NCBI GenBank assembly: GCA_033065855.1
Contig: JAVXUO010001786.1
Location: 1 to 64,000 of the forward strand
Direction of reading: 5' to 3'
DNA: 64,000 nt
Source of the DNA: Escallonia rubra
Taxonomy: Eukaryota > Streptophyta > Magnoliopsida > Escalloniales > Escalloniaceae
In this document: one piece after another, positions 207 to 45,411 of the stretch
Numbering within the stretch: the stretch's first letter is position 1
Layout of the letters: each line of letters starts with the position of its first letter
The notes under the pieces: model-generated
Database searches by the model: none
What the model saw: the letters and a program-made list of their open reading frames with translations, nothing else
Told to the model about the DNA's origin: nothing
Translations under genes and position numbers: made by a program

Positions 207-409
207 GGGGCGATCCACATCTACCGGTGGGAAAAACATTATTTCTCCACCGAATCGCTGCTTTTAGCAGGGATTGTATAAAAAAAGGCAAAAACCCAAT
301 CGTAACAAAGAGTTGCGGTTGGAATTATTGAAGCACAAAAGCCCAATCGCAACTCTTTGTTACGATTGGCAATTATGAGAAAAAATGGTCAACAATCACG
401 GCCCTTGTC

Positions 410-900
410 CTTTCTCCCCCCTCGTGGCCCCCACCCCTGCTCCCCCCGTGGCCCCCACCCCTCCTCCGGTCAAAAATCACAAAAGCCCAATCGCCCCTCT
501 TTGTTGCGATTGGCAATTGTGAGAAAGGCTCACTTGTCCTTTCTCCCCCCCGTGGCCCCCACCCCTCCTCCCCGTGGCCCCCACCCCTCCTCCGGTCAAA
601 AATCACGGCCGTAGTGTCCTTTTCCCCCCCCGTGGCCCCCACCCTTCCTTCCCCCCCCCCCCCCGTGGCCCCCACCCCTCCTTTCCCCGTCCTTTATTTT
701 TTTTTGTGCATTCGGGCCCTTTCTTTTCCCGAAAAATTAGAAAGAAAGAGAAAAGGGCCCCACCCCTCCACCCCCCCCCCCTGGCCCCCACCCCATTGTC
801 CTTTCCCCCCGTGATGCCCCCTTCCCCCCACGTGTCATTTCCCCCCTCCCCCCACCCCCACGTGTCATTTCCCCCTCCCCCCACCCTACTGCTCACTCAC
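410..900. repeat. C-rich minisatellite in the left arm
   Basis: Imperfect repeats of a core like GTGGCCCCCACCCCTCC, with pure C runs (for example near 650-664 and 772-781). The inverted G-rich copy is at about 12,640-13,130. The G-rich strand has many runs of three or more G and could form G-quadruplexes. The proline-rich open frames here come from base composition. Confidence 0.8.
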
Positions 901-1319
901 GGGCACAATTTTTGTCCGTCTTCTTTCTTTTTTTCTCACTTTTTTTTTCTATAAATTCTCTTCTTCCCGAACCATTTCTTCCAATCTCCTCATTCTCCAT
1001 ATCTCACCTACATAATCTCCACAACAATACAAACAAAAAATTTTTACGCTAGAAGATCGGTGGATAACCGCTAGAAGATCGGTGGATTTTTCGTTAAATA
1101 TATCAAGTCAAAACAAGTAAGTATTTTGAATTTTCTTATAATTCAATGTTAATTTCAAATTGTTCTTACCAATTGATTGTTTAAATTGTGTTACGCTTAA
1201 ATTGTTCTTACCATAGTCTAAAATTCGTGTTTAGGGCGTCAAAATTACGTTTTTACAAATCGGGGTATTACATTCGAAAGATTCCAAAATAGCGATTTTT
1301 TAGGGCGTCAAAATTAGGA

Positions 1320-3060
1320 TTTTTCACGAATTTATAAAAAATAGCTAGAGCTAGATTTTGCCAAAGTACAAAAAAGAGACCCTAGTTATTTTTAAAAGAT
1401 CTGTATCAGGTAAAAATTTCAGATTTTTCCAAAGACTGGAAACGGGTAAACTGATACGCGCAACCTTGTAACTTTGCAGTGTAATTTAAAATATCAAGCT
1501 AGCGCGATTTCGCGCGAAACTTTTTTGAGAACCCTAGGATGTTGGGAAGTTCCATTTCCCAGGAATTCGGGCCATTCCGAAGCCGTTAGCAATTTTTTTG
1601 CCGAACGGGCTTTTAAGCGCTCGATCCGGACACCGGTTCGGGATTTTTGGGCGAAAAATCCGTAAAATACTTTTTAGATCAAGAATGAATTCAGGAAGCT
1701 TAAAATAGCATTTTAAAGCACTTTTGAGATTTTTCCTGATGCCAGGGGCATTTTGGTAATTTGTCACCCCGAGAGGGGTATTTTGGTAATTTTACGGTGT
1801 CAAGTTTTTCAAACGACTTTTTAGTCCATAAATGTAAGCAAAGCACATGAAAGGCTGATTTGAATCCGGTTCGCGGGCGTAATTGTCGCTAAAGGTGAAA
1901 ACTTAATTAGACAGTTTTTCACGAATTTATAAAAAATAGCTAGAGCTAGATTTTGCCAAAGTGCAAAAAAGAGACCCTAGTTATTTTTAAAAGATCTGTA
2001 TCAGGTAAAAATTTCAGATTTTTCCAAAGACTGGAAAGGGGTTAACTGATACGCGCAACCTTGTAACTTTGCAGTGTAATTTAAAATATCAAGCTAGCGC
2101 GATTTCGCGCGAAACTTTTTTGAGAACCCTAGGATGTTGGGAAGTTCCATTTCCCAGGAATTCGGGCCATTCCGAAGCCGTTAGCAATTTTTTTGCCGAA
2201 CGGGCTTTTAAGCGCTCGATCCGGACACCGGTTCGGGATTTTTGGGCGAAACTTCCGTAAAATACTTTTTAGATCAAGAATGAATTCAGGAAGCTTAAAA
2301 TAGCATTTTAAAGCACTTTTGAGATTTTTCCTGATGCCAGGGGGCATTTTGGTAATTTGCCGCCCCGAGAGGGGTATTTTGGTAATTTTACGGTGTCAAG
2401 TTTTTCAAACGACTTTTTAGTCCATAAATGTAAGCAAAGCACCTGAAATGTTGTTTTGAAGCCGGTTCGCGGGGCGTAACTGTCGCTAAAGGTGAAAACT
2501 TAATTAGACAGTTTTTCACGAATTTATAAAAAATAGCTAGAGCTAGATTTTGCCAAAGTGCAAAAAAGAGACCCTGGTTATTTCTAAAAGATCCGTATCA
2601 GGTAAAAATTTCAGATTTTTCCAAAGACTGGAAAGGGGCTAACTTATCCGAGGAACCTTGTAACTTTGCAGTGTAATTTAAAATATCAAGCTAGCGCGAT
2701 TTCGCGCGAAACTTTTATGAGAACCCTAGGATGTTGGGAAGTTCCATTTCCCAGGAATTCGGGCCATTCCGAAGCCGTTAGCATTTTTTTTGCCGAACGG
2801 GCTTTTAAGCGCTCGATCCGGACACCGGTTCGGGATTTTTGGGCGAAAAATCCGTAAAATACTTTTTAGATCACGAATCAGGTCAGGAAGCTTAAAATAG
2901 CATTTAAAGGCACTTTTGAGATTTTTCCTGATGCCAGGGGGTATTTTGGTAATTTGCCACCCCGAGAGGGGTATTTTGGTAATTTTACGGTGTCAAGTTT
3001 TTCGAAGGACTTCTTAGTCCAGAAATGTAAGCAAAGCACCTGAAATGCTGATTTGAAGCC
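1320..3060. repeat. Tandem array of a unit of about 596 bp, left arm (3 copies)
   Basis: The landmark CGAATTTATA recurs at 1,327, 1,922 and 2,519, giving spacings of 595 and 597 bp. The whole unit between landmarks repeats with few changes. Two short motifs recur within each unit: 'attttggtaattt' near the end and 'aggatgttgggaagttcc' in the middle. A diverged single copy lies at about 61,600-62,470. Confidence 0.9.
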
Positions 3061-3241
3061 GGCGCTAAATTTTAGCGTTCGGAGTGGTGGGAAGTGAGTA
3101 ATGGTTTTAATACATTAAAATAATGATTTAATGACTATTGCTAATGCGTTGGTAAGCTAGGTTAAAGATTCAGTTACAGTTTTGGAATGTAAATATTATG
3201 GACGCTAAGTTGGTTTACGATTATATTTTGTTCTTAGAGAT

Positions 3242-6110
3242 ATGGATTTCAACCCTGGACCTCATGATACATCAATCCTATACGATGACGATGACCACGT
3301 CGCGAGGCACGTATTTGACGGTGTCGATAGGGGTGTTTTGGAAACAATTCAAAGCACAAGTCACCTCGACGAGTGGGTACTGAACGAGGAACAAATACAA
3401 CTATTACACCGTCAAAATTTGACCATGTTCACCGATTGCGGGATTTGGTCTCGGCACGACGATTGCCTTATATCCGCTCTAGTTGAACGATGGAGGGGCG
3501 AGACGAACTCATTTCACTTCCGGTTTGGTGAAATGACTATTACATTAGAGGACGTCGGATTTATACTTGGAATCCCATGTCACGGCAGACCCATTACTTC
3601 GAGTAAAACGTCTGCATCCATAGCGAAGATGGCTAGGCAGTATTTTCCGGGAATTCCGAGGGAAGCTCTTACAACCAACGGCATAAAACTTAAATGGCTG
3701 AGAGAGCAGTACGGCGAGCTACCGGATGAATACACTCCTCATGATTTGGTGACGTATACGAAGGCATTCCTTTTGTATATTACTGGATCTATATTACTTC
3801 CGACGCAAAAAAAAAACACGGTGCATCCGAAGTATATGGTGTTCTTGGAGGATCTTGAGGAGGTATACTCGTATTCGTGGGGTTCAGCTGTCCTTGCGCA
3901 CCTATATCGAGCATTGCACAAAGCTACGAGAAAGGGTGCCAAGTCCATTGCCGCCTGCATCACTCTGTTACAGGTTTGAGCATTTATATTCTTGGTTGAC
4001 GTGTCAATATATTCGTGATTAATTACTAATTCCATATAATGTTTGCATTCACAGGTTTGGTCTTACGAGAGGCTACCCACGGGTCGTCCACAGCCCGTAG
4101 CTGATTCCGATGAGACGTGGCCTAGGGTGTGGGCCTGGGGGCCTACGACCAAACGGAGGAGACGGGTAGACCCTCACCACCATCTAATGTTCTATCGGGG
4201 GGAACTAGATATGATGGATGCATCCCAGGTGACGTGGCAGCCATATGGGAAGGTGATGCATCGGTTGGATGAGTGGTGTTGGCAACTTCCGGTGTCGTAC
4301 GTGCTGGCAGGTTTGGTTCGGGTGCCACTTATTCACTTCGAAGTATGTGAGTTTCAGATGCCCGATCGAGCTATGAAACAAGCTGGCTGTCTACAAGGGA
4401 TACCAAAACCCGCTGTAGACATGCGGCCATACAGGAGCGGTCGAGGTCCGAATTTTGAGGTGCCTGATGCCTTGAATTTGCTGAGCGACGAGGTGCAACA
4501 GTGGAATACTTGGCAAGAAACGTATGGTAGCCTTGTATCGCTCAAGGACGACGGCACCAGTACTGAGGAGTACCTGCAATGGTTTCTCAAGGTGACGCGC
4601 ACGAGGGTGAATCGCCCTTCCCAAGTGAGGAAGACATCGTATGCGCCACGTGAGGTCTATGACCAGTTCTGGGCATTGAGCATTGTAAGTCAACCTAGTG
4701 TTGTTTCAATATTTATTTGCGCACCTTCTCGACCATGCCTGAAATGATGACGGTGATTTTTCTATGCATGTTTTTTAGGTTGACCAGGGCACTGAGGTGT
4801 TCAAGCAGCTCGAGCGGTTTGACTGGTATGTCGCGCATGCGCCTGACAGTCTCAAGAGCTCCATTGAGAGGTACAAGACTGATCTTCACAACTTTAGTGT
4901 TGCGTACCGGGGTTACCAAGGGGAGCCGTCTAGTCGCTTGCCTCCTGACGCGTACGGCTCTCAGCCCCAGAGTCAGGTGTGGGAGCCGTCTAGTCGCTTG
5001 CCTCCTGACGCGTACGACTCTGTGCCCCAGAGTGTGGTGTGGGAGCTGTCTAGTCGCTTGCCTCCTGACGCGTCTTTGCCCCAGAGGGAATTCTGGGAGC
5101 CGTCTAGTCGCTTGCCTCCTGACACGTACGACTCTCAGCGCCAGAGTCAGGTGACCCAAGTAGGAATCCAGGCCTCGCGCCCAAGCATCCGGTCGGATAA
5201 AGGACAAGCGACAAAGCCATTGAGGCCGAACAAGCGGGATTGGATCGACCGGCACTACTTCGGGCCTGAGCCTGTCGATACCTCAGACTTTCCTCTTGAA
5301 ACATTCCTAGGTCACGCGGATGTGAGAATGTTGGCACCGGAGACAGATATTTCAAATTTTGTCATGAACGCTTATATAGATCTGCTCCGGATTAGAGAGC
5401 TACGTTATAACCAGTGCGAAGATTTGAAGCTTAACATGTATCCCACTTATTTTGTCACATTAATGGTGACCAGCATGAGGGAGTTCACAGAATGGAGGAG
5501 GCGAGGGGCAGGCATGGGTAAGTGGAAACCAGCTGGAAACGTGTTAGGCCTGTTGAACGCAGACTATCAATGTCACGCTGCTCATGCGAACCTTATCATG
5601 ATACCTTGCCATCATGAAAACCACTGGTTCCTATTAGTTCTCCATCCAGCGAACAGAGCGGTCAACATATACGATAGCCTAAGGGAGGACTCTCCTGGGC
5701 GGTCGCTGGCACAGATGTACAGCGAGTACATCACTGCAGTGGTTAGTTTTTATCGGTTGACCTTGGCTCATAGTATATTCTTATTGTAACATAGGCTTGA
5801 TGACCTTTTTTATTGTTGGATGCAGACTACTATCTTCTCGCTAGCGTGCCGAGATTATTCGGGGGAATCCATCACCAGGAATTCGACGGTAGAGCCTTGG
5901 ACGGTCGTGATGATACAGGACCGACCAAAGCAATATAACAGTCACGATTGCGGGATTTACGTCCTCAAGTACATGGACTACATTGCTCGCTCGGAGGTGC
6001 TCAAATATACGTCGTGGACTAGGAAGGCTGCCTTGACGTTTAGGTATAGGATAGCCTGGGAGCTGAAAAAGAATGAAGCTAGATGCCTTCATTACCATTA
6101 TCCTAACTAG
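3242..6110 (+). CDS. PMD-Ulp1 fusion protein of the MULE (C48 peptidase-like), 4 exons
   Basis: The predicted exons are 3,242-3,973, 4,055-4,684, 4,779-5,741 and 5,826-6,110. All three introns are GT-AG, 81-94 bp long and in phase 0, and the joined frame gives about 869 residues with no internal stop. Residues about 45-430 form a plant mobile domain, with WSRHDDCLISALVERW and GEMTITLEDVGFILGI. Residues about 502-578 are four copies of a unit of about 20 residues built on PSSRLPPDAYDS. The C-terminus is a Ulp1-like cysteine protease with all expected active-site residues: His736 (ENHWFLL), Asp753 (NIYDSL), Gln811 and Cys817 (QYNSHDCGIY). Ulp1 proteases cut SUMO or related modifiers; the target of the transposon-borne versions is not known. 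The ATG at 3,242 fits the usual PMD N-terminus (MDFNPGPHD). Its 3' end faces the transposase across a repeat array. The stop codon lies at the first repeat unit. Splicing is inferred from the sequence. Confidence 0.88.
4918..5150 (+). repeat. Coding tandem repeat in the linker of the PMD-Ulp1 gene
   Basis: Four copies of a unit of 54-60 bp start near 4,921, 4,981, 5,041 and 5,095. They keep the reading frame and encode a Pro/Ser/Gln-rich linker between the two domains. The third copy is 6 bp shorter, a whole number of codons. Confidence 0.9.
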
Positions 6111-7196
6111 CGTGACTAAGGTGCAATGAGCAAAGAACCCCTTAAAAAAATGTACATAATTTTTCGCAAGCTATGAATTTGGCGATAAAGTGTGCGCGAA
6201 TATGCCTTTTATAGGAAAACCAAAAAAATTATTTGTCTCGATTTTCGCCGAAATTCATAGAAATGGCCTATTAGCGTGCCTAAGGGGCAATGAGCAAAAA
6301 AGAAATGACAAAAAAAATTACAACATTTTTCGGAAGCTATGAATTGGGCGATAAAGTGTGCGCGAATAGGCCTTTCATAGGAAAACCCAAAAAATAACGT
6401 GTCTCGTTTTTCGCCGAAATTCTTACGAATGGGCTAACTAGCGTGCCTGAGGTGCAATGAGCGAACAAAAAGTAAAAAAAAAATGTAAAGGAATTTTCGG
6501 AAGTTATGAATTGGGCCCTAAAGTGTGCCCGAATAGGCCCTTCATAGGAAAACCCAAAAAATAACGTGTCTCGTTTTTCGCCGAAATTCTTACGAATGGG
6601 CTAACTAGCGTGCCTGAGGTGCAATGAGCGAAAAAAAAGTGACAAAAAAAATTACAAGATTTTTCGGAAGTTATGAATTGGGCCCTAAAGTGTGCCCGAA
6701 TAGGCCCTTCATAGGAAAACCCAAAAAATAACGTGTCTCGTTTTTCGCCGAAATTCTTACGAATGGGCTAACTAGCGTGCCTGAGGTGCAATGAGCGAAA
6801 AAAAAGTGACAAAAAAAATTACAAGATTTTTCGGAAGTTATGAATTGGGCCCTAAAGTGTGCCCGAATAGGCCCTTCATAGGAAAACCCAAAAAATAACG
6901 TGTCTCGTTTTTCGCCGAAATTCTTACGAATGGGCTAACTAGCGTGCCTGAGGTGCAATGAGCAAAAAAATAGTGAAAAAAATGTACAAGATTTTTCGGA
7001 AGTTATGAATTGGGCACTAAAGTGTGCTTGAATAGGCCATTCATAGGAAAACCCAAAAAATAACGTGTCTCGTTTTTCGCCGAAATTCTTACGAATGGGC
7101 TAACTAGCGTGCCTGAGGTGCAATGAACAAAAAAATTTACAAGATTTTTCGGAAGCTATGAATTGGGCGCTAAAGTGTGCGCGAATAGGCCCTTCC
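6103..7196. repeat. Tandem array of a 166-bp unit between the convergent genes
   Basis: The phrase CTAACTAGCGTGCCTGAGG (or close variants) starts at 6,103, 6,268, 6,434, 6,601, 6,768, 6,935 and 7,100, spacings of 165-167 bp, with a partial last copy to about 7,196. The four central copies are nearly identical. The first copy overlaps the last codons and stop of the PMD-Ulp1 gene, so the array starts exactly where coding ends. It may act in 3'-end formation or as a spacer between convergent transcripts; that role is inferred. Confidence 0.92.
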
Positions 7197-7304
7197 AAAA
7201 ATATCAATAATCCACAAACCAAATCACAAATTAAAGATTCAACAAACCAAATCACAAATTTAAACATTATAAAAGTTATTCGTTATACAACTGAAACATT
7301 AACC

Positions 7305-9605
7305 CTAACACTCTTCATCATCATCGTCCTCCTCGACCATACTGCCAGGTTCGAGACCTAACACTTTATAATGATTTCTCTTGTCATGATCAGTCATCTT
7401 ATTACACAACGCACACTTTCGCAATTTTTTTTGACCCGTTGCTTTTTCAATCGGATTCTTCATGCGTATTTCTCGTTTTCGCCCTTTTGTTTGAGAAATA
7501 ATTGGATCAAAAATGTCGTCCTCCTCACCTTGCATGCTAGTGCCGTCAATGACTGGCTGTTTGGCTCGATTGAATCTACCGGCTGGAGTCGTCCGAGTAG
7601 TCGGAGTGTCCCGTCTTTCTGGTAATGCCATCCTAAACTGTGCATGCTTAGCCTTATCCCGTGCGGCTGCTTCAACTTGATACCTGTACCCATCAAATGT
7701 TGACGCTGCATCCAATGATAAACCGTGCATGATGTTACAAAGGTGATTATATCGCAGCATCTCAGATTGCTCGAAATCAACTGAAACATTGGGCACGTAA
7801 GGAATGTGACCGTGGACTCTATTGGCTTCCTTCGTCCACCGTTCCAAGATATACTGTGGAGGGATTTCACGAGCATTCTTGGCGCTCAAAACCCTCAACG
7901 CGTGTCGACAAAGTATACCTTTATGCTCAAACAGTTGACAGTTGCAATTTACCAACCCGGTGTCCATACATTTAGCCACGGTAAAATGTCTTCTGTTCCT
8001 CGGAGCCGACGAAGAGCACGGATTGGCGAAATTCGTCACATTTGTCAAAGCATAAACCTTGAGATCTCTGGTGGAATACTCGTGCAACTTTGTCATGCCA
8101 TATTGATTCGACTTTAGTAGTTCATCTTGAAACTGTCTAAACATTTCCTTGGTATAGACTTGAGCCGCATGAGCCTCCAAAGGTGAAAAGAGTAGTATGG
8201 CTCTTTCTCTGTAAACTGTAGCCGCGTCGGCTTCTCTCTCACGGTACAATTGCCTGTCAACGGCTTTCTGCATCTCTAGTACGAACTCCACTATACTTGA
8301 AGACTGGCTTACGTACCCATCAAAGAATGAATTCATAGCTTCGCTTCTCGAGGTCGTAGTCATTCCGGCTGCAAAAAACTTCTTGGTGTAGGCACCGACC
8401 CACTGTGTCTTGATCTCATACAACGATTGTAACCAGTCATGATTGTGCAAATAGTAGTCATCCATTAACGTGGCCCACCTCTCCTCGAACACGTCTACCG
8501 TCAACGATTTCTTCACACATGTATTAAAGTCAGTCTTGAATGACGGATGGTTTGCATATACATTGTGAAGCCGTTCGGGATATTTGTTGCTTATGTGCCA
8601 TGTGCACAGGCCATGGTGAGTATCTGGAAGGACCTTAGCGATTGCATTTTTCATTGCCAGATCTTGGTCGGTGATGATGGTCTTTGGAGGAATATGATAC
8701 ATTGCTTGAAGCCACATTTCAAATAACCATGTAAATGACTCCTCCGTCTCATCCCTAAGCAGGGCAAAGCCAAACGAGATTGACTGATAGTGGTGGTTCA
8801 CCCCGGTGAACGGAGCAAAAGGCATAGAGTACTTATTGGTGCGGTATGTGGTGTCAAACGTCACAACATCCCCAAAATTTTGGTAAGCAGCTCTAGAACG
8901 GGGGTCCGCCCAAAATATAGTACTAATGCGGTTCTCATCATCCAGTTGGAGACTGTAGAAAAATCCAGAATTCTCACTCTGAAGGCACCTGAAGAGATCA
9001 AGTGTAGCTTGAGAATCACTCTTACCGAAAGACTCTTTCTTCTGAGCACGAAGTTCATTTCGAAGGTCTACTTCGTTGAAACTCAACTTGTCAATCCCCC
9101 CAGCCTGGCTTGAGAAAACCCCCATCATCTTAGAAGGTGGAATTTTAGCCTCGGCCATTGTAAAAATCAGTTGTCTGTGTGCCGCGCTTATTTCTCGGTG
9201 TTGATGAATTTGACCAATCTTACTAGGGGTCATCAACTGATGATTATGACTCAACTCCACTCCCGTCACAACCTAATGGTTTTCATTTTTCCGGTGTACT
9301 GCATACACATGGGCCTGGCAGCCGGTACCCGGAAATGTGTCCCGTTTTCTTTGTCTTGTTGTCCCTTCGTCACTGATCTGAACGACCGGGGGTACATGCG
9401 GTGCTCCTCTATGACACTCAAATAGTCTTGCACAAATTTGAACTGTATTCACCCGTTTTCTAGTCGTCTTAGTTCTAATACCGAAACCCATCGTTTTTGA
9501 ATATGCTCTATAGTATGCTTCAACTTCGTCCAGTGTTTGAAAAACTTGACCCAAGTAAGGTGGATCAGAACCTTCACAAAAATTGCTTCCTCCAGTTGCA
9601 TCCAT
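7305..9605 (-). pseudogene. FAR1-type MULE transposase with one in-frame stop
   Basis: One continuous frame of 767 codons from 9,605 to 7,305, broken only by a TAG at 9,275-9,273 (codon 111). Before it is a FAR1/WRKY-GCM1-type DNA-binding domain (residues about 20-125, with cysteines in QICARLFEC and GCQAHV). After it comes the MULE catalytic domain: Asp251 (VTFDTTY), Asp313 (IITDQD), the CxxH of LCTWHI, and Glu422 (SRSEAMNSFF). A SWIM zinc finger follows at codons about 554-568 (CNC...CRH), then a small C/H-rich knuckle near the end and an acidic tail. Family members usually have Trp where the TAG lies (NHW-VV), so one G-to-A change explains it. The two parts could still be read as separate proteins. 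It shares its promoter side with the right arm and ends facing the PMD-Ulp1 gene. Confidence 0.88.
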
Positions 9606-9720
9606 ATTTATACTGAAATCTAAAAAATAAAAATTATATCATTCTCAACAAGTCATAGAATTAAATAAAAGAAGAATAAAAATTATTTAAACGTAATTGT
9701 TGGAAAATTTGTATAATGTA
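9606..9720 (-). promoter_or_regulatory. Upstream region of the transposase
   Basis: A short AT-rich stretch between the transposase start and the inner edge of the right arm. Initiation signals probably lie here or in the arm, but I see no clear TATA box that I would defend. Confidence 0.3.
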
Positions 9721-12700
9721 AAATTACCAAAATAGCACCCGATGAGCGGCAAATTACCGAAATGCCCCCGGGGGTTCATTATCACCCTAACGCCCCAAAT
9801 CAGCTTCAAAAAAACCTTTTAGGTGCTTTGCTTACATTTCTGGACTAAGAAGTCATTTGAAAAACTGAAAGGGGCAAAATAACGAAAATACCCCTCTCGG
9901 GAATGCGAATTACCAAAATGCCCCCTGGCATCAGAAAAGCTGAAAAGTTTTTTCAAACGACTTTTAAGCTTCCTGAATTCACTCTTTAAAATAACTTTTC
10001 GGGTGTCTCACACCCTTTCCTGAACTAAAAGTTTTTTAAGCATAAATTTGTGTAATGTAAAATTAGCAAAATAGCCCCCGATGGACGACAAATTACCGAA
10101 ATGTCCCCTGGGGTTCATTGTCACCGCGAATCGGCTTCAAATCAGCATTTCAGGTGCTTTGCTTACATTTCTGGACTAAGAAGTCCTTCGAAAAACTTGA
10201 CACCGTAAAATTACCAAAATACCCCTCTCGGGGTGGCAAATTACCAAAATGCCCCTGGCATCAGGAAAAATCTCAAAAGTGCCTTAAAATGCTATTTTAA
10301 GCTTCCTGAACTGATTCGTGATCTAAAAAGTATTTTACGGATTTTTCGCCCAAAAATCCCAAACCTGTGTCCGGATCGAGCGTTTTTTTTTATAAATTCG
10401 TGAAAAACTGTCTAATTAAGTTTTCACCTTTAGCGACAGTTACGCCCCGCAAACCGGCTTCAAAACAACATTTCAGGTGCTTTGCTTACATTTATGGACT
10501 AAAAAGTTGTTTGAAAAACTTGACACCGTAAAATTACCAAAATACCCCTCTCGGGCCGGGAAATTACCAAAATGCACCCTGGCATCAGGAAAAATCTCAA
10601 AAGTGCTTTAAAATGCTATTTTAAGCTTCCTGAACTCATTCGTGATCTAAAAAGTATTTTACGGATTTTTCGCCCAAAAATCCCGAACCGGTGTCCGGAT
10701 CGAGGGCTTAAAAGCCCGTTTGGCGAACAAAATAGCTAACGGCTTCGGAATGGCCCGAATTCCTGGGAAATGGAACTTCCCAACATCCTAGGGTTCTCAT
10801 AAAAGTTTCGCGTGAAATCGCGCTAGCTTGATATTTTAAATTAGATTGCGAAGTTACAAGGTTCCTCGGATAAGTTAGCCCCTTTCCAGTCTTTGGAAAA
10901 ATCTAAAATTTTTACCTGATACGAATCTTTTAGAAATAACTAGGGTCTCTGTTTCTCACTTTGGCAAAATCTAGCTCTAGCTATTTTTTATAAATTCGTG
11001 AAAAACTGTCTAATTAAGTTTTCACCTTTAGCGACAGTTACGCCCCGCGAACCGGCTTCAAAACAACATTTCAGGTGCTTTGCTTACATTTATGGACTAA
11101 AAAGTCGTTTGAAAAACTTGACACCGTAAAATTACCAAAATACCCCTCTCGGGCCGGGAAATTACCAAAATGCACCCTGGCATCAGGAAAAATCTCAAAA
11201 GTGCTTTAAAATGCTATTTTAAGCTTCCTGAACTCATTTGTGATCTAAAAAGTATTTTACGGATTTTTCGCCCAAAAATCCCGAACCGGTGTCCGGATCG
11301 AGGGCTTAAAAGCCCGTTTGGCGAACAAAATAGCTAACGGCTTCGGAATGGCCCGAATTCCTGGGAAATGGAACTTCCCAACATCCTAGGGTTCTCATAA
11401 AAGTTTCGCGCGAAATCGCGCTAGCTTGATATTTTAAATTAGACTGCGAAGTTACAAGGTTCCTCGGATAAGTTAGCCCCTTTCCAGTCTTTGGAAAAAT
11501 CTGAAATTTTTACCTGATATGGATCTTTTAGAAATAACCAGGGTCTCTGTTTTGTACTTTGGCAAAATCTAGCTCTAGCTATTTGTTATAAATTCATGAA
11601 AAACTGTCTAATTAAGTTTTCACCTTTAGCGACAGTTACGCCCCGCGAACCGGATTGAAAACAACATTTCAGGTGCTTTGCTTACATTTATGGACTAAAA
11701 ATTCGTTTGAAAAACTTGACATCGTAAAATTACCAAAATACCCCTCTCGGGGCGGCAAATTACCAAAATACCCCCTGGCATCAGGAAAAATCTCAAACCA
11801 GCTTTAAAATGCTATTTTAAGCTTCCTGATTTCATTCTTGATCTAAAAAGTATTTTACAAAAGTTTCGCCCAAAAATCCCGAACCGGTGTCCGGATCGAG
11901 CGCTTAAAAGCCCGTTCGGCCAAAAAAATAGCTAACGGATTTGGAATGGCCCGAATTCCTGGGAAATGGAACTTCCCAACATCCTAGGGTTCTCATAAAA
12001 GTTTCGCGTGAAATCGCGCTAGCTTGATATTTTAAATTACACTGCAAAGTTACAAGGTTGCGCGTATCAGTTTACCCATTTCCATTCTTTGGAAAAATCT
12101 GAAATTTTTACCTGATACAGATCTTTTAAAAATAACTAGGGTCTCTTTTTTGCACCTTGGTAAAATCTAGCTTTAGCTATTTTTTATAAATTCGTGAAAA
12201 ATCCTAATTTTGACGCCCTAAAAAATCGCTATTTTGGAATCTTTCGAATGTAATACCCCGATTTGTAAAAACGTAATTTTGACGCCCTAAACACGAATTT
12301 TAGACTATGGTAAGAACAATTTAAGCGTAACACAATTTAAACAATCAATTGGTAAGAACAATTTGAAATTAACATTGAATTATAAGAAAATTCAAAATAC
12401 TTACTTGTTTTGACTTGATATATTTAACGAAAAATCCACCGATCTTCTAGCGGTTAGCCACCGATCTTCTAGCGTAAATTTTTTTTGTTTGTATTGTTGT
12501 GGAGATTATGGAGGTGGGATATGGAGAATGAGGAGATTGGAAGAAATGGTTCGGGGAGAAGGGATTTTATAGAGAGAAAAAGTGAGGGAAAAAGAAGAAA
12601 GAAGACGGACAAAAATTGTGCCCGTGAGTGAGCAGTAGGGTGGGGGGAGGTGGAAATGACATGTGGGGGTGGGGGGAGGGGGGGGAAATGACACGTGGGG

Positions 12701-13314
12701 GGAAGGGGGGCATCACGGGGGGAAAGGACAATGGGGTGGGGGCCAAGGGGGGGGGGGGCTTTTCTCTTTCTTTCTAATTTTTCGAGAAAAGAAAGGGCCC
12801 GAATGCACAAAAAAAAAATAAAGGATGGGGGAAAGGAGGGGTGGGGGCCACGGGGGGGGGGGGGGAAGGAAAGGTGGGGGCTAGGGGGGGGAAAGGACAC
12901 TACGGCCGTGATTTTTGACCGGAGGAGGGGTGGGGGCCACGGGGGGAGGAGGGGTGGGGGCCACGAGGGGGAGAAAGGACAAGTGAGCCTTTCTCACAAT
13001 TGCCAATCGCAACAAAGAGGGGCGATTGGGCTTTTGTGCCGTGATTTTTGACCGGAGGAGGGGTGGGGGCCACGGGGGGAGTAGGGGTGGGGGCCACGAG
13101 GGGGGAGAAAGGACGAGTCAGCCGTGATTGTTGACCATTTTTTCTCACAATTGCCAATCGCAACAAAGAGTTGCGATTGGGCTTTTGTGCTTCAATAATT
13201 CCAATCCCAACTCTTTGTTGCGATTGGGTTTTTGCCTTTTTTATACAATCGCCGCTAAGAGCAGCGATTCGGTAGAGAAATAATGTTTTTCCCACCGGTA
13301 GATGTGGATCGCCC

Positions 13315-13315
<1 letters not shown>
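9720..13315. repeat. Right terminal inverted arm of the MULE
   Basis: Inverted copy of the left arm. The outer 1.1 kb (12,200-13,315) matches 207-1,310. The inner part carries three full units of about 598 bp plus a partial, more diverged one at about 9,720-10,390. Unit landmarks (TATAAATTCG or variant) are at 10,391, 10,989, 11,587 and 12,186. The right arm is therefore longer than the left by part of a unit. Confidence 0.9.
12640..13130. repeat. G-rich minisatellite in the right arm
   Basis: Inverted counterpart of the C-rich block in the left arm. It has long G runs on the + strand (for example 12,673-12,683 and 12,852-12,864) and repeated GGAGGGGTGGGGGCCACG. Confidence 0.8.

Positions 13316-13316
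<1 letters not shown>

Positions 13317-13366
<50 letters not shown>
13317..13366. repeat. (AT)n tract, right insertion flank of the MULE
   Basis: About 50 bp of alternating A and T, about twice the length of the left tract. Open frames of alternating Tyr and Ile across it are artefacts. Confidence 0.9.
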
Positions 13367-13368
<2 letters not shown>

Positions 13369-13512: not shown

Positions 13513-13690
13513 CTATGACAGATGAATCGCTTCAGTCGGCGCTTCAGACACACCAGACTGCACAGGATCAAACCAATCCTGGTGTAACAAGACGGCCTGG
13601 TGTACGAAAACGGCATCTTGACTAGCATAAGATGCCAATGCCTGAGCCAGACTCTGGAAACGCTCATTCCCTTGTGCAATATTGGTGGCC
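13513..13690 (-). pseudogene. Possible terminal exon of an unrecognised host gene
   Basis: An open frame on the - strand enters from the LTR side and ends at a TAG at 13,515-13,513. The part outside the LTR reads as ordinary protein (for example SLAQALASYASQDAVFVH and LLHQDWFDPVQSG). The sequence beyond the stop, down to the (AT)n tract, looks like a 3' untranslated region. A splice-acceptor-like CAG stands at 13,693-13,691. If this is real, element 1 landed in the upstream intron or exon and the MULE in the 3' end. I do not recognise the protein and found no matching upstream exons right of 55,843. It may instead be a transduced fragment or chance. Confidence 0.35.
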
Positions 13691-14323
13691 TGTGAAAATC
13701 TACTGACCAATGAATTATGGAGACGTGTGCGAGAAAAGGTTAAAAGATAAATGGAGTATTAAACTAAGGACATTTAGGAGGTGAGTAGTAATAATACGTC
13801 TTTAGTAATGACGTAATGGCAGTTTACGGCAGTTGAGATAATGACGTGAGAACTGTTTGTGACGTGGCCTGTGATGCAGGTTTTGGCGGCAAATTGAATG
13901 GAAATCGGTACAGCTGTCAATAGGAGAGAGATCACAACAACAGTTATGGAAGATGTAGACGGATAGTTTCATTTTGAAAAGAATTGGAGCGAAGAATAAA
14001 AGGAGAGACGGGGCACCATCATCATCAACACACAATTAAAGATTTGCTCAACATTTTTTTTCTTCTCTTTTTTTCTTTCTTTAACTTTGTGAAGGCTTTG
14101 TTTCACTTTGCCTTATATCGATAGAGGCTCCTGTATTCAGTGCACACATCAGTTCATTTATAAAAGTTGTCTTTGTCTTAGGTGCGCGCATTCTGTATTT
14201 TGACTTCTATTTTACCAAAGTTTCCAATTTTAGTTTCCTCTGTCAAAGTTTCCCATTTTAGAGAAGTTCTCAGATAAGAGGCCAAAAGGAATCCACATTA
14301 ATTGGAGCTTGCCATCCAGTACA
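13679..14323 (+). repeat. 5' LTR of element 1
   Basis: Matches 55,139-55,843 from near its start (TATTGGTGGCCTG, compared with TGTTGGCCT in the 3' copy) to its end (CCAGTACA, compared with CCAGTGTA). It is followed by TTTGGCACACCCACTTAGG, which fits a primer-binding region. The exact left edge may be off by about 12 bp. Confidence 0.75.
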
Positions 14324-15633
14324 AAAATTTGGCACACCCACTTAGGACTGTTCAATCTAAAAGGTGAAGCATGCCTAGTACGAGGAGTCATGTCAGAATT
14401 AATGGAGCCAATAATGGCACTGTAAACAATGCTACCGGTAATGGAGGTAACGTGGAGAAGCAACAAGGATTGCTCCAACTATTATTGGTTCGAACGAGAG
14501 TGTAGGTTTCAACAATGATGTTCCTAATGCAGGAAGTTCTGCTGAAAGGAATACCACTGTCAGGGTTGATACCAACACTGTAATGGCAGTTGGTGGAACT
14601 GAAGCGATCGACAGGAACGACCAGAAGATGGGCCTCTTGATGGGCCATGTTAGTTCCTCGGCTCAAATACTTACCACCGTATTATCTCAATGAATGACTA
14701 TTCTGCAAGGACAAGGGATGGCTTTTAGTAAAACAACAAGTAGTCAGGAACAATCAAATTCCAGAATAATGGAAGAAATGAGGAAATTGATAGAAGAATG
14801 GAATGCCTCTGGAAACGAGTTGCTTAAAGATTAATCAGAAGAAATGCAGAGACAAACTTCGTCCATTGCCAAAATAGTGGACGTAACACTACAAAAAGGC
14901 AAAGCTCCCCTAAACCATTTTGACGAGGCGGTAGAGGCGGATGTCTCTCCCATAAGGATATAAACCATGGTAAGGCAGCCAAACTGCTTAAGTTTAAATC
15001 ACCCAAATGAATCAAGCTGGTTCATTCCCAATCCAATCGATAGTGGTGACCCTGGGCCAAGCAGAAGGAATACTGCAAAAGCAAATGGGTCAAATGGGCC
15101 CTCAACTTGACCTAATAACAAAAGGGTATCGAGAATTGGGACTGGCTAAGGGGTTCCTGGCCAAGGAGGTGAGAATGCCTATACTCCTCCCTATAAAATA
15201 GGAGCAGAGGGGGTGCCCCGATTTGACAATCCAACATTCGAAGAAGTTGGTGGAGTTATGAGGCCGACTGGCCTTGAAGATAAAGAGATGAAAGGCTTGC
15301 GAATAGGAACACAACCACATCATGAATTCAATCATGTCAATGCGGGTCAGGGATATAGGCTTGTCAATAGGCTTGTATATAGAAAACCGTATCCCGCTAT
15401 GATCGATCAAATGGATGTTCTAAGGGGAATTAAAATCCCAGAGTTTGGTCTTTTCCGTGGGGAAGGAAATCAGTGAACGATTGAATACATTATGAGGTCC
15501 ACCTTCCAATGTGGTGAACCCGGTCCAAACAAGTGGGTAAAACTAAAATGGCTCCAATACTCGTTGATTTGAGTTGCTTTTTTAGTGGTTTGCCAATATA
15601 ATTCTGTGTTCTCTTGGAGAGACTTGAACCCGT
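14324..15633 (+). pseudogene. Fossil gag region of element 1 (left part)
   Basis: After the primer site a broken gag-like reading region runs up to the insertion point of element 2. A stretch near 15,400-15,520 resembles the conserved gag core of Tat-type elements (PEFGLFRGEGNQ). The region is interrupted in many places and continues past element 2 at 30,207. Confidence 0.6.
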
Positions 15634-16623
15634 TGTAGACACCAAAAAATTATTTTACTAGTCAACAGTAAATAATTTAGTGTCTAGTCAATTATTCACC
15701 GCCGCGGAAAATACAGGTCAAGATGCGGACTTGGGGCCAAGCAAAAGAACGGGCTCGAACCAAAGTTAAATTTGAAGAACCAGTCCAGGTAAAATTATGC
15801 GGTCCAGCCCATGGTCTTGTTACCAGAAAAGTCAAATTTCACTAAAATCATTCCCAAAATTAAATGGAGACAAATATCCATTTAATTGGTCCAATCGGAT
15901 GATTAAGGGGACAAAAATCTCATTAATTACAAAGTCAAAACTCAAATTACGGATTTTCCAAATTTAAGCCTGCCATCTTGCCTATAAATAAAGGGCTTGA
16001 GGTAGTAGATAAGGGACACACAGAGGGTCTCAGCATCAAAGCCAAAGCTCCGCCGAAACTCTGTCGTCTCCCAGGTTGTGCTTCATTTAAAGAACAATAC
16101 ATACTAAATTAGTGTCGTTCTTTAATTGAGCACCTCTGACACACGGAGTCCTCGCAAACAAGTTAGCGCTCTGCCGGAAATTTTGTGCAAGCACATCAAC
16201 CTCGAGAATTACCCTCCACTCGAAGAACAATACGCACTAGTTTAGTGACGTTCTTCAATCATTCTCAACAACGAAGAGTAAATCTCTCTCTGATCCTAAA
16301 TATCAAAGGAGATTCGCCTTCAACCTGGGTGATTCCGCAAGTCAAGAATTGCCGCCTTGTTTGGGATAAAGCTTCGAAGCCCTCGAGCAATCACCACTTC
16401 CACGATCTTTCAACCGTGAAGATTGAAGAAGCTGAAATCCACGTTTCAAGATCAAGCTATTTTAGCCCTTGGATTGTGACTGAACCGGAGATCGAATCAG
16501 AGGATTTTACATTTATTGTGTAAAAATCACAGAGTGGTGTAACCTATAATTTAAATTTGATAAATTGAATTAGATGCAATTATTTCTTGTCTCGCAGATT
16601 TAGACACGAAATTTGTGTGTACA
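15634..16623 (+). repeat. 5' LTR of element 2
   Basis: 990 bp, TG...CA ends. A TATA box (TATAAATA) at 15,983-15,990 is followed by a 5'-leader-like stretch, so the LTR promoter is still visible. The duplicated CCCGT is at 15,629-15,633. Confidence 0.92.
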
Positions 16624-28947: not shown

Positions 28948-29209
28948 AGTTTTTGTTAGAGTGTCACAGCCGTCGAGACCGTGTAGCTTGTGGGTTGAGA
29001 TTACTTCATAAAAGCATAAAACCCTAAAGATCCATGGACGACAAGCGCTGAGCAAGTGAGTCGATGCCGATTTCATTGGTGGGGGAGCAATCAAAATAAT
29101 TTTCTTGTCCAAAAAAAAAAGAAAAAGAGAGAGAGAGAGACAGATACTTCATGCCTTGCACGATAACCAACAAAAAGAGTACCGCACAAGTCTTGAAGTG
29201 GGGGCAATT
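28948..29209. other. 3' internal end of element 2
   Basis: Non-coding stretch leading to the purine tract AGTGGGGGCAATT directly before the right LTR. It contains a short (GA)n run near 29,127-29,142. No gene. Confidence 0.5.
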
Positions 29210-30206
29210 TGTAGACACCAAAAAATTATTTTACTAGTCAACAGTAAATAATTTAGTGTCTAGTCAATTATTCACCGCCGCAAAAAATACGGGTCAAGAT
29301 ACGGACTTGGGGCCAAGCAAAAGAACGGGCTCGAACCAAAGTTAAATTTGAAGAATCAGTCCAGATGAAATTATGCGGTCCAGCCCATGGTCTTGTTACC
29401 AGAAAAAGTCAAATTTCACTAAAATCATTCCCAAAATTAAATGGAGACAAATATCTATTTAATTGGTCAAATCAGATGATTAAGGGGACAAAAATCTCCT
29501 TAATTACAAAGTCAAAACTCAAATTACGGGTTTTCCAAATTTAAGCCTCCCATCTTGCCTATAAATAAAAGGCTTGAGGTAGACAAGGGACACACAGAGG
29601 GTCTCCGCATCAAAGCCAAAGCTCCGCCGAAACTTTGTCGTCTCCCATGTTGTGCTTCATTTAAAGAACAATACGTAGTAAATTAGTGCCGTTCTTTAAT
29701 CGAGCACCTCACCTCTGACACACGAAGTCCTCGCAAATAAGCTAGTACTCTGCCGGAAATTCTGTGCAAGCACATCATCCTCGAGAATTACGCTCCACTT
29801 GAAGAACAATGCGCACTAGTTTAGTGACGTTCTTCAATCGAGCATTCTCAACAACAAAGAGTAAATCTCTCTCTGATTCTAAATATCAAAGGAGATTCAC
29901 CTTTAACCTGGGTGATTCCACAAGTCAAGAATTGCCGCCTTGTTTGGGATAAAGCTTCGAAGCCCTCGAGCAATTACCACTTCGACGATCTTTCAACCGT
30001 GAAGATTGAAGAAGCCGAAATCCACTTTTTAAGATCAAGATATTTTAGCCCTTGGATTGTGACCGAACTCGAGATCGAATCAGATGATTTTACATTTATT
30101 GTGTAAAAATCACAGAGTGGTGTAACCTATAGTTTAAATTTGATAAATTGAATTTGGTGCAATTATTTCTTGTCTCGCAGATTTAGACACGAAATTTGTG
30201 TGTACA
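29210..30206 (+). repeat. 3' LTR of element 2
   Basis: 997 bp, same ends as the left copy. TATA box TATAAATA at 29,560-29,567. Small length differences are a 3-bp gap and insertions of 4-5 bp near short repeats. The flanking CCCAT is at 30,207-30,211. Confidence 0.92.
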
Positions 30207-40420: not shown

Positions 40421-43400
40421 TCTACAGGTAGTGGCCGTTGACGGGGGCCGTGATCTGACCGTCGTCAGGGTTGAGCAGGAGGTTCGAGCCATTGTCGCGG
40501 GCTTCATGTACCGTGAAAGGGCCCTCCCAGTTTGGCGTGAATTTGGGAGCCAACATGTTGGCTCGTACATGTTTGGCGGCTTGGAGAACAAGGTCGCCTT
40601 CGACAAATGAGCGTGGCTTGACTGTCTTCCCATAGGCTTTGGTGAGTTGCTCATGATATTTTTTCACACGGCGCAGGGCAGTGGCTCTTCGTTCGTCGAT
40701 GCCTTCAAGTGCTGCCATTCTAGTGGCGTCCTCCCCAATACCACTGTTGAGAGAAAATCGGGCCGAGGGCACCGCGATCTCGACTGGTATGACGCATTCA
40801 TCCCCGTAGATGAGGGAGAAGGGTGTGGTCTTCGTCGCTGTGTGCTTGGAGGTTCTGTAAGCCCAAAGTGCCAGACTTAGTTTTTCGGACCATAACCCGC
40901 TGGCGTCATGAACCATCCGTGACAGTACGTGGAGTAGAGTCTTGTTGGAAGCTTCAGCCTGACCGTTGCCTTGCGGATAGTAGGGAGTTGACGTGGCATG
41001 GTTGATGTTGTATCGTTCCATAAGAGCTCAAACCTTTCGGTTAATGAACGACGTGCCATTGTCGGATATAATACATCAGGGGATGCCGAAGCGACAGATG
41101 ATGTTGTCACGCAAGAATTTAGAAATAGCGCCTCCCGTGGCTCTCCGTAGAGGAATGGCTTCGACCCACTTTGTGAAACGTTCAGTTGTAACCATAATCC
41201 ATGAGTGACGTCTGGACGGCGGGTGGATGGGGCCGATGAGGTCGAGAGCCCAAGAGTGAAATGGACAGGGGGCCAAGATCATGCGCAGGTCGGACGCTGG
41301 CGTGTGCATTCTATCGGCATGCCGCTGGCATGGTTGGCAGTGTCGAACATGGGAGATGGAGTCCGACTCCATAGTCAGCCAATAATATCCCAATCGTTGT
41401 AATTCTTCATATAACTTTTGAGATCCTTGATGCTCCCCACAGTCACCATTGTGCACTTCATTAAGCACCTCTATTGCTTGGGCACCTTGCAAGCATCCCA
41501 AGGTGCGCCCCGAAAAACCTTTGCAAAATAACTCGCCTTCCGTCACAAAGTATCTGACCGATTTTCGCTTGATAGATCGTGCCAAGCTACGGTCAGGAGG
41601 TAGAATGCCATGAGATAGATATTGGATGAAAGGCTGACGCCAGTCACCCTCGACGTTGATCATAAGAGCTTCCGCATTATCTGGCGCATAAAAGCATTCG
41701 GGACGATCCCGTTGTATATCTGAAGCATCTTTGGCCATGGATGGACAAAAGAGGTCCATGCGCTGAAGGCGACAGTATAGAGGGGGACCGTCGAGGCCAC
41801 AACACTTCTGATGACCAAGTTGAAGTTTATGCTTTGCTTCTTCCAGTGCCAAACACCTGGCTAGAGTGCCGCCGGGACATCGTCTGTACAAGACATCGCC
41901 CAACATCAAAAGTCGGTGAGAATGGAGGCATGAGTGAGAGATGGTGTCTTGATTTGGTCGACGATCGCCTGCCTCCAATTATCTACCATAGCATCCGTCG
42001 GTATTAAGTTCAATGCTGTGCAGGGCTCAGTTCTTTTGATAATAGTTAGCATCTGTTGTTCTCCATCAACGTCTATCTTTGAAGCGTTCGTAGCCAAGCT
42101 GTCCGCATGTCTATTGTGGCACATGTTGTGATGTTCATATTGGACATGGCCAAGTCTGCCTTCCAAGTGTTGTACCAAGGCACGATAAGGTGCCAAGGCT
42201 GGCTCCTTAACGACGAACTCCCCGTCAGCCTGCTTCATGATCAAGTTCGAATCTCCCTTCACACATAAGGCCTTAGCCCCCATACTGGTAGCCAGCATGA
42301 GGCCGATGACAAGTGCCTCATACTCCGCTTCATTATTAGATACCGGGTATGCAAGATTGAAGGATAGGGATATGGTAACACCCTTCAGATTTCGAAGGAC
42401 TATACCGGCACCCCCTTGCCAGCGGGGTGCTCCATCGGGACCTTTGCTAGTGGTCGAACCATCGAATTTGAGCGTCCACAAGTCAGCTACGTCAGTGATC
42501 AGGGCCGTTTCTTTGCCTGGCAAGTGAACCAAGGTTGGTTCGTAGTGTTGGCATGGAAAGAAAGCCAAGAGATCGGTAAGGGCCTGACTCCGTAAAGCGG
42601 TAGGGTTTTTGATAGATACACCAAACTCGGCCAGGAGTAACAGCCAGCGGGTAAGTCAGCCAGATAGGGCAGGGCATGTAAGCATGTACCAGAGTGGATC
42701 AGCCTCGGTGACAAGTGTGATCTGGTGCGCCAAAAAATAGTGTCTGAATTTCTGTGAGGCGTATACCAAGGCGAGGCAGTGTTTCTCAAGCTTGGAGTAG
42801 CTGGCCTCGGGTCCCGGGATCATCCAGCTGAGGTAATAAATAGAACGCTCCATCCCATCCACCTCTTGGGCAAGCAAAGCCTTGATGGACCTGGGTGTGG
42901 AGGTCAAGTAGAGTAGTATTGGGAAACCCTGCTGTGCTACGACCATGGTCTGCGGGGACATGAGGACTAACTTGATATGTTCAAATGCTAACTGTTGGGG
43001 CGCACCCCAATTCCATGGTGCGCTCTTGCGCGTCAAGTGCTGGAATGGTGTGATGAGCTCGGCCAAGGCGGGAATGAATCGACGAAGGTAAGAAAATTTA
43101 CCGAGGAAGCTCTTCAACTGTTTGGGGTTTTTGGGAGGCGGCATTGGATGGGTCAATGTCGATGCCCTGCCGACTGACAAGGAAGCCGAGGAATTTGCCG
43201 GAGGAAACACCAAAGGCACATTTTAGTGGGTTCATTCGCATGTTATACTGGCGGCAACGATCAAAGACTGCTCGAAGGTCAGTGAGGTGATCACATTTCT
43301 TTTTAGATTTGATGATGAGATCGTCGACATAGTCTTCCACTGTATGGTGTATCATGTCATGGAAGATAGCTGTCATATCCCTTTGATAGGTAGCACCCGC

Positions 43401-45339
43401 ATTCTTGAGGCCGAAAGGCATGACTTTCCAACAAAAGTTTCCCATAGGAGTTCGAAAGGCTATTTGGCACAATCGTCAGGATGCATTCGAATTTGGTTGT
43501 AACTGGTGAAGCCATCCCTGAAGGACAAGGTTTCATGACCGGCAGCGGCCTCGGTAAGCATGTTAATGTTGGATAATGGAAACTCATCTTTGGGGCATGC
43601 TTTATTCAAGTCCCGAAAGTCAATACACACCCGGACTTGACCATTCTTCTTTTGTACAGGGACGACATCGGCCAGCCAGATGGGATGAGTGATAGGTTCA
43701 CTGAAGCCAGCCTGTAGAAGGTGTTCGATCTCCTGTTTGATCTTTAACTTGAGTACGGGGCAGAAGGTCCGCGGATGTTGACGGACATGGGTGGACCTGG
43801 TGGTAATGTTGAGGTGGTGGGTTACAAGTGCAGGGTCCAACCCGGGCATTTCATCATAACTCCATGCTAGCACATCACGATATTCGCGAAGGAGGGTAAC
43901 CAAGTCCTCTCTTTGACCCGGGGCGAGTTTAGTGCCAATGTAAGTGAGTCGTGGTTCCTCCCCCGGGTCAGCCATGTTAATTTCTTCAAGTTCTTTAGCC
44001 TGTGGTCGACGGCCATCTTCGTAACATGGGGGAGTGGCACCGGGGGTGAGCTCGGGGTCAGGTGGGCAGTGCTCCGCCGTACAACACCATTCGTTTTCCA
44101 TAGGTGGGTCAGGTTCGGGGGGGGTTAGATGATGGACCACCTGAAGCCCCCACGCACCGTCATTACTGATATATGAATTTGCCGTCGTGGACAATGTGTT
44201 GAAAGGCTGGCGCAGCCTTTTGCTTCTTAGAGACGGCGGGGAGTTGGCCCTTCTGGAAGGCGGTGTCGTTGAGGTGGACCCCTTATTATTCTTCTTAGCT
44301 TTAGACTTGGGGGGTTTGTTTCCGCACAGCTCGTCCCTGTTTGGCAGCCTGGTCGAGTGGATGTGAGTGGTATTCTCACCATCTTCAGCAAGTTCTGTAA
44401 AGAAAGAGGCCTCGGCGAAATATGATTCGGAACATTCAAAAAGAGCCCGGGTGGCGAGGATTGTCATGGCTACCTCACGTCCCGCATGACCGGCCACCAG
44501 TTTCATACACTGATGGTATGTTGAGGGAATAGCTTTGTTAATATGAATCCACGGTCGGCCAAGTAAGAGGTGGAATGCGGGCTCATTGTCGATGACATGG
44601 AATGTTGTGTTGCGACATACAGGCCCAATCATGAGGTCAACAGTGATATGGCCGAGCTTTGCAAAGTGACGAGTGGGATGATATTGACCAAGGCACCACA
44701 ATCTACCAAGGGACGACGGAAGCCCGTGCCATTAACAGTACATTCTGAAAACAATGGTCGATTGTGATGTTCGACTGGCGGCGAGTCTTCGTCAGAGAAG
44801 ACCAAAGTAGTGGAAGGAATGTGACGTAGCTCAGTCTGGGCAGTGAAGCATTCGGGACCAAGGCCAGTGGTGACCTCGATCAGGCAGTTGGAAAGATAAG
44901 TTCGAGCGGCGGGCAAAAACCCCATTTCGTCAAAAAAACTTTTGATCTTCGTTATCTGTCCAAAATAGGACGCTGGTCGACTAGTTGGATATGTAGAAGG
45001 CACGATCGTTGGGACGACCTAGGTCGAGGCTTCAGGAATGACAGGCTCGACATAGTCGGTGACAGCCATGAGGACCTGGTGCTCCCTGTTGTTATGGCCA
45101 TGCAGTGGGTAGGGGTGCCTATGCACATCATTGTTCTTGCGTAGCTTTAGGTCACTCGCAGTGACCTTCCTTGCAAAACTGTTACGTAGTCCATTGCAAT
45201 CTTTGAGGTGATGCCCCACAGCTCGATGGTAGGGGCAGTAGTTGGGTTTAGCTTTGTCAGCTTCTGTGATGTTTGTTCGCATCGGCGACAATTGAAAGTT
45301 ATTGTCATGTGCTACCCACTCGGCCAAAAGTTCCTGCAC
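40421..45339 (-). pseudogene. Fossil pol of element 3 (protease, RT, RNase H, aRNH, integrase)
   Basis: Read right to left. Gag zinc-knuckle-like end about 45,340-45,020 (YCPYHRAVGHHLKDC). Protease region about 45,000-44,500 with LLLGRPWIH at its end. Reverse transcriptase about 43,870-43,100, with VRVCIDFRDLNKACPKDEFP and YVDDLIIKS. RNase H about 43,000-42,600. Archaeal-type RNase H about 42,500-42,000 (LKFDGSTT, SNNEAEYEALVIGL). Integrase about 41,800-40,420, with CQPCQ, YYPQGNGQAEASNK and a C-terminal GPF-type end. All domains can be recognised, but the region has several breaks. Confidence 0.88.
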
Positions 45340-45411
45340 TGTATTGAGGTCACACAGGTATTCTGGGGCAGGCTCTCACTGCCTTCTCTTGTCGGGGCGT
45401 CGGTCCCCCTC

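Follow-up and report, generated by a model that had tools for sequence, protein, structure and literature searches.

The window, that is, the whole stretch of 64,000 nucleotides of Escallonia rubra DNA that was analysed, contains near its start a Mutator-like element (MULE) whose mirrored ends enclose two convergent genes (Table 1). One encodes a transposase. The other is an intact frame in which a repetitive linker joins a plant mobile domain (PMD) to a C48 protease domain of the Ulp1 type with all catalytic residues, and it is present as a single copy in the 64-kb window according to tblastn.

Table 1. Positions of the Mutator-like element, its genes and its repeats in the window
Feature	Position	Strand	Description
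Whole Mutator-like element	207-13315		13,109 bp; mirrored ends GGGGCGATCCACATC...
5' terminal inverted repeat	207-3062	+	Outer C-rich part, leader/donor part, 597-bp tandem units
Inferred 5'-UTR intron of PMD-Ulp1 gene	1117-3237	+	Donor CAA/GTAAGT in the terminal inverted repeat, acceptor TTGTTCTTAG; contains 597-bp units
PMD-Ulp1 exon 1	3242-3973	+	N-terminal half of PMD; PF10536 3e-44, profile 15-180
PMD-Ulp1 exon 2	4055-4684	+	C-terminal half of PMD; 8.1e-19, profile 181-346; KRRRR cluster
PMD-Ulp1 exon 3	4779-5741	+	Linker and first part of C48 (PF02902 4.1e-8, profile 7-120); His736, Asp753
Linker repeats	4923-5156	+	Four copies of 60, 60, 54 and 60 nt; residues 503-580
PMD-Ulp1 exon 4	5826-6110	+	Rest of protease with Gln811, Cys817 and stop; C48 2.7e-9, profile 149-208
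PMD-Ulp1 introns 1-3	3974-4054, 4685-4778, 5742-5825	+	GT start and AG end in 3/3
167-bp tandem array	6103-7195		6.7 copies; CpG o/e 1.35; separates the convergent genes at their 3' ends
Transposase gene	7305-9605	-	FAR1 1.3e-7, MULE 1.6e-32, SWIM 2e-7
Inferred 5'-UTR intron of transposase gene	9620-12404	-	Mirror image of the above; same donor, at 12404
3' terminal inverted repeat	10124-13315	-	Carries further 597-bp units

The first-pass annotation had described four exons that join in frame for about 869 residues, and this is confirmed by exon lengths that are all divisible by three, by GT-AG intron ends, by phase 0 in all four exons and by a joined frame of 869 residues with 0 internal stops. 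In Pfam searches with the full protein, the PMD (PF10536) is matched at residues 72-421 with an E-value of 1.4e-70 (238.6 bits against a curated cut-off of 34.9) and Peptidase_C48 (PF02902) at residues 649-853 with 2.3e-20 (73.8 bits against 20.7). Each exon alone scores for its own half of the PMD or C48 domain, and the PMD-Ulp1 reading is thus not that of a chance open frame. When exon 1 was shuffled (four versions) or reversed (one version), Pfam returned no match at E up to 1 (0/5). A search of NCBIfam at E up to 0.01 returned nothing for exons 1 and 3, and Rfam at gathering scores gave 0 matches in the window.

Retention of any one of the three introns leads to a stop or a change of frame, and the fusion therefore needs the predicted splicing. 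The locus might not be one gene at all, with a PMD-only transcript that ends in intron 2 and protease exons that are either dead or part of a separate transcript. The unspliced frame of exon 2 does continue to a stop at 4747, and the first Met of exon 3 is residue 638, just ahead of the C48 match at 649, so that a protease-only product could begin there. Four consecutive phase-0 exons with GT-AG ends and 869 stop-free codons speak against such a division, which is considered very improbable.

The complete set of C48 catalytic residues named in the first-pass annotation is also found, as His736 (codon at 5622-5624), Asp753 (5673-5675), Gln811 (5931-5933) and Cys817 (5949-5951) all align with the corresponding catalytic residues of solved SENP2 (4/4). 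SENP2, SENP5 and SENP1 are the nearest solved proteases to the C48 half, and the solved chains matched at E up to 10 represent 16 distinct sequences, made up of SENP1, 2, 3, 5 and 7 and a Ulp1-like SUMO protease. SENP8, a NEDD8-type protease, is absent among these 16 sequences. A particular Trp and a particular Asp in SENP2, which we take to be SUMO contacts, correspond to Asp and Asn here, in a weak N-terminal alignment that is by itself non-significant. The earlier guess that the protein removes SUMO-type marks is thus reasonable as far as SENP2, SENP5 and SENP1 are its nearest solved relatives and SENP8 is missing, although sequence by itself establishes neither activity nor substrate.

The repeats in the linker have pN above pS in five of six pairs, although over few sites, and give no hint of constraint in this part of the protein. 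The basic cluster KRRRR at residues 277-281 in exon 2 could be a nuclear signal. Exon 1 matches the DUF1985 profile with an E-value of 9.4e-7 over 114 of 141 profile positions, with 29.3 bits against a curated cut-off of 35.1, and the full protein matches it with 1.9e-5 (25.1 bits, same cut-off). DUF7745 is matched by exon 1 with 6e-6 and by the full protein with 32.9 bits, which is above the cut-off of 26, and DUF287 gave no match to the full protein at E up to 1. The PMD half is probably related, at some distance, to the DUF1985 domain found in VANC. Among solved chains exon 1 has nothing meaningful (best E 0.27). Single-sequence AlphaFold2 models were unusable, with a mean pLDDT of 39.9 for exon 1 and 32.2 for the protease region with intron 3 kept.

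MULEs are recognised by their transposase domain and by a target site duplication of about 8-11 bp, and usually but not universally by terminal inverted repeats (TIRs). The element has a MULE-family transposase domain (PF10551, 1.6e-32) and mirrored terminal inverted repeats. It is set in an (AT)n microsatellite with AT runs at 182-206 and 13317-13367, and a target site duplication is unreadable because AT repeats flank both ends. The arms are about 3 kb each and 84-99% complementary among the 25 listed of 49 pairs. Their outer parts are 96% identical, with 66 mismatches and 12 internal gaps (13 if the end overhang is included) over 1653 aligned bases. The first-pass placement of the PMD-Ulp1 gene, with its repeat-bearing linker, inside a MULE is thus supported.

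The transposase frame was read over 768 codons with one internal stop and no frame shift. The stop, an in-frame TAG at 9273-9275, interrupts the FAR1 domain, and this copy would therefore make no full transposase. FAR1 is N-terminal and SWIM C-terminal, which is the domain order given for the Jittery group in PMC6446971 Table 1. The plant members of that group are, however, listed there with TIRs that are absent or 39-292 bp long, compared with about 3 kb here. By domain order the transposase fits the Jittery group, and by TIR length the element does not.

Both genes may be expressed from the terminal repeats. Between the element end and the ATG on each side there is exactly one splice donor that agrees with the consensus in at least 8 of 9 positions, CAA/GTAAGT, at the mirror positions 1117 and 12404. 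On the left side, the acceptor at 3237 is four bases ahead of the ATG at 3242 (an alternative has 3240 as first exon base), and for the transposase the first exon base would be 9619, 14 bases ahead of the ATG at 9605-9603, with alternatives at 9612 and 9864. The claim of a shared leader rests on the combination of features, because at least one such donor turns up in 28.5% of shuffles. The donor is situated in a stretch of 283 bp (1065-1347) that is the longest without any difference between the two arms, and for which hand arithmetic from the differences between the outer arms gives a chance expectation of about 1e-4; gene conversion could also have made this stretch. A TATA-like box is found at 950 and at 12571, as one of five matches in the left arm and one of six in the right, and, if transcription starts at 980 as assumed, the leader contains no ATG ahead of the donor. 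Taken together, these features suggest that promoter, leader exon and splice donor lie in the TIRs and are common to both genes. If this is right, the 597-bp arrays fall within the first introns of both genes.

This layout has a bearing on what the protease might act on. Its target could be the transposase or the transposition complex, through removal of SUMO or trimming, instead of silencing chromatin, and the gene would then hold a place similar to that of mudrB in MuDR. The convergent arrangement of two genes and their putative shared promoter in the TIRs agree with this, and mudrB is described as a gene of unknown function that is apparently needed for integration (PMC6446971, in part). 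It is nevertheless quite an unlikely explanation, and it does not sit well with the PMD proteins MAIN and MAIL1, which act in silencing (PMC5418596, in part).

The 167-bp array could be a shared terminator or a source of siRNA. The 597-bp and 167-bp arrays were compared for a shared target motif, a possibility that was rejected because they have no more in common than shuffles do at 7-10 bases. The two units have 6 shared 8-mers compared with 5.25 in shuffles, and 123 of 300 shuffles reach as high. Within the 597-bp unit there are 13 repeated 9-mers versus 4.4 in shuffles (0/300 as high) and 23 repeated 8-mers versus 10.5 (2/300), and within the 167-bp unit internal repetition is no higher than in shuffles. 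One further copy of the 597-bp unit is found within 61606-62474, 48 kb from the element and 74-76% identical to the units of the left arm. Next to it, positions 62416-62474 match 3071-3129, and there is no further match to the element in this place. The repeat may have originated from this copy, or the copy may be the remnant of a related element.

Two direct repeats of about 1 kb, at 15633-16623 and 29209-30206, are 95% identical over 988 aligned bases and are probably the LTRs of a chromodomain Gypsy element. Between them, the region of 17.2-20.8 kb has pieces of gag, integrase and a chromodomain, and the region of 25.0-26.4 kb has reverse transcriptase and zf-RVT pieces of LINE-like type. 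Broken pieces of Gypsy type on the minus strand at 40422-46398 comprise gag, the reverse-transcriptase-like domain RVT_3 and an integrase zinc-binding domain, each in its own ORF, and a dispersed repeat pair at 13683-14320 and 55139-55840 is 72% identical. The earlier statement that most other genes of the window are broken agrees with the pieces checked, those of gag, integrase, chromodomain and reverse transcriptase, which lie in separate ORFs.

It had also been argued that the keeping of both domains suggests selection. This is a weak argument, as intactness alone is insufficient: the transposase is nearly intact as well, and the chance that the PMD-Ulp1 frame stays free of new stops is still 0.10 at 2% neutral change (0.57, 0.32 and 0.01 at 0.5, 1 and 4%). 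The gene may be passive cargo, either a host PMD-Ulp1 gene or two gene pieces that were transduplicated and are intact only because the element is young. Gene fragments are often captured by MULEs, and several independent captures of ULP genes (PMC2528002) and two of PMD-C genes (PMC5418596) have been proposed, in the parts of these papers that are available. The chance of 0.32 at 1% change agrees with such an origin, and so does GC3, which is 0.57 in the PMD-Ulp1 gene (0.49 in exon 1, 0.59-0.61 in exons 2-4) compared with 0.45 in the transposase; the two genes could thus have separate origins. On the other hand, the locus retains two domains and all catalytic residues in one frame with clean ends. 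The chance of intactness at 2% change falls to 3.6e-6 when the indel rate of the TIRs is included, or to about double this value with the end overhang left out of the gap count. This indel rate is itself inflated by homopolymer (C and T) runs. The listing of PMD for at least seven plant MULE groups (PMC6446971 Table 1, seen in part) also fits a recurrent role better than an accident. Passive carriage is possible but somewhat doubtful. Pattern scans, which reach close relatives only, gave no match for exon 3 against viral_contigs, 17 pattern matches and 0 relatives for exon 1 against viral_contigs, and 10 pattern matches and 0 relatives for exon 1 against genome_contigs.

CpG o/e is 0.96 in the element compared with 0.52-0.79 in the eight other stretches measured, which agrees with escape from silencing but could be explained by the youth of the element alone. 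CpG decay was compared as a possible trace of such an escape, in a test that takes divergence into account. Between the TIR arms (207-1875 against 11644-13315), transitions were seen at 8 of 146 CpG sites and 31 of 612 other C/G sites, an odds ratio (OR) of 1.09. Five other repeat pairs of at least 80% identity gave 2.98 (44/249 and 53/790) and all 15 pairs 1.60 (115/480 and 309/1875), and the difference from the TIR arms has a p-value of 0.029 with the five-pair set or 0.37 with all 15 pairs, so that the contrast varies with the choice of repeats. These comparison sets were chosen after a first look. The five-pair set was left after three overlapping pairs were dropped, and it still includes one pair (18443/18345) that overlaps itself and has an alignment identity of 1.00. 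Taken by themselves, the inner arms have an OR of 1.60, and the CpG rate ratio is 1.7 among the 597-bp units and 1.1 among the 167-bp units.

The KIU or Kaonashi ULP-like genes of Arabidopsis non-TIR MULEs are reportedly the subject of Hoen et al. 2006 and Sasaki et al. 2022, the latter of which is said to treat the anti-silencing systems of Mu-like elements in eudicots and may cover cases similar to PMD-Ulp1. In the excerpts of the literature available for this comparison, KIU resembles the present gene in being a C48 protease gene in a MULE with reverse orientation to the transposase (PMC13317346, PMC6117577, PMC2528002). It differs in that PMD is N-terminal here while DUF1985 is below the cut-off, and in that the gene here resides in an element with TIRs of about 3 kb whose transposase is of the FAR1 type, in contrast to non-TIR MULEs. 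The Ulp1 domain of KIU is strongly conserved in eudicots, and VANC genes with a transduplicated Ulp1 (KIU) hypomethylate related elements of their own group (PMC13317346, citing Sasaki 2022; excerpt). An Arabidopsis gene of the Ulp1 family, AT3G31910, is annotated with DUF1985 (PMC5821449).

The VANC proteins of VANDAL elements contain DUF1985 and DUF287, and have variable regions with tandem peptide repeats (PMC5735166). Each binds to short motifs of the noncoding tandem repeats, intronic ones included, in the element that encodes it, which leads to loss of methylation (PMC5735166, PMC10398659), again according to excerpts. PMD-Ulp1 is likewise an accessory MULE protein with a weak relation to DUF1985 and tandem peptide repeats in a variable region, and its element has noncoding tandem repeats, which in VANDAL21 are found also in introns of VANB and VANC (PMC5735166, in part). 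Unlike VANC, it has a protease and lacks DUF287, and no motif shared by the two array types was found at 7-10 bases.

The presence of Ulp1-like genes in MULEs, which the first-pass annotation took as known, is borne out by reports of ULP genes in MULEs with TIRs, in those without and in Jittery-like ones (PMC2528002, in part). In grapevine and melon, ULP is found in Jittery-like and TIR-MULEs, downstream of a Jittery-like transposase in either orientation, and the two Jitvine families of grapevine, to neither of which ULP is assigned in particular, measure 11.9 and 14.4 kb, compared with 13.1 kb for the element here (PMC2528002, excerpt). The available part of that description contains no "mobile domain" and no TIR length for the Jitvine families (PMC2528002). 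Plant MULEs with PMD are similar in carrying a PMD gene, often antisense to a SWIM transposase (PMC6446971, excerpt). In the accessible part of its Table 1, FAR1 is not listed for the plant PMD groups and PMD is not listed for Jittery, while both are present here. PMD-C has been described as transposase fusions (PMC5418596, excerpt), whereas here PMD is fused to a protease, and the available descriptions of PMD genes in plant MULEs mention no protease on the same gene (PMC6446971, PMC5418596). In Amaranthus, a cassette has six plant-mobile-domain genes and one Ulp1 gene as separate genes (PMC5240378).

The literature searched, which had most subscription papers outside it, contained no text that names both the plant mobile domain and Ulp1, apart from the Amaranthus report with its hyphenated spelling, and DUF1985 was not mentioned in any item that combines at least two terms for PMD, C48 and DUF1985. 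Proteins annotated with both PMD and C48 are present in plant databases, and the host genes MAIN and MAIL1 have, to our knowledge, no C48 domain. The PMD, Ulp1 and MULE parts are thus already known, and their combination looks like a variant. MAIN and MAIL1 share the PMD with PMD-Ulp1 but are host genes that act in silencing and not against it (PMC5418596, in part), and it has been speculated in the same paper that PMD captured by MULEs serves against silencing.

The best reading of the locus, tentatively held at somewhat less than an even chance, is that PMD-Ulp1 is an accessory gene of a long-TIR MULE with a FAR1-SWIM transposase and acts as an anti-silencing factor similar to VANC and KIU. 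By analogy, it would be a PMD-type counterpart of VANC/KIU that works like KIU. The protein would enter the nucleus, where the PMD half might take it to chromatin, perhaps to the repeats of the element itself. Silencing proteins at these sites would lose SUMO or a related modifier through the action of the protease half. The element would then stay expressible. As regards the modifier, SUMO has been described as an improbable substrate of the KIU proteases (PMC6117577, excerpt). The four linker repeats agree with the tandem peptide repeats in the variable region of VANC/KIU proteins. PMD-Ulp1 is not classed as a member of VANC/KIU because DUF1985 is below the cut-off, DUF287 is absent and no motif shared by the two array types was found. 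A more far-reaching version, in which PMD and DUF1985 form one superfamily and PMD-Ulp1 is a second self-targeted anti-silencing lineage outside the VANDALs, with stripping of SUMO-type modifiers at intronic repeats, must be regarded as unlikely.

The escape of plant transposons from silencing has been worked out in detail for VANC in Arabidopsis, while the role of the Ulp1 domain, which is found in many MULEs, has been called unknown (PMC13317346, in part). The weak match between PMD and DUF1985 is a reason to test PMD-Ulp1 as an anti-silencing factor, and with PMD, a domain of host silencing, and Ulp1 in one intact frame, both halves are testable together. If PMD and DUF1985 do belong to one superfamily with a second anti-silencing lineage, MAIN and MAIL1 would be relatives of anti-silencing weapons.
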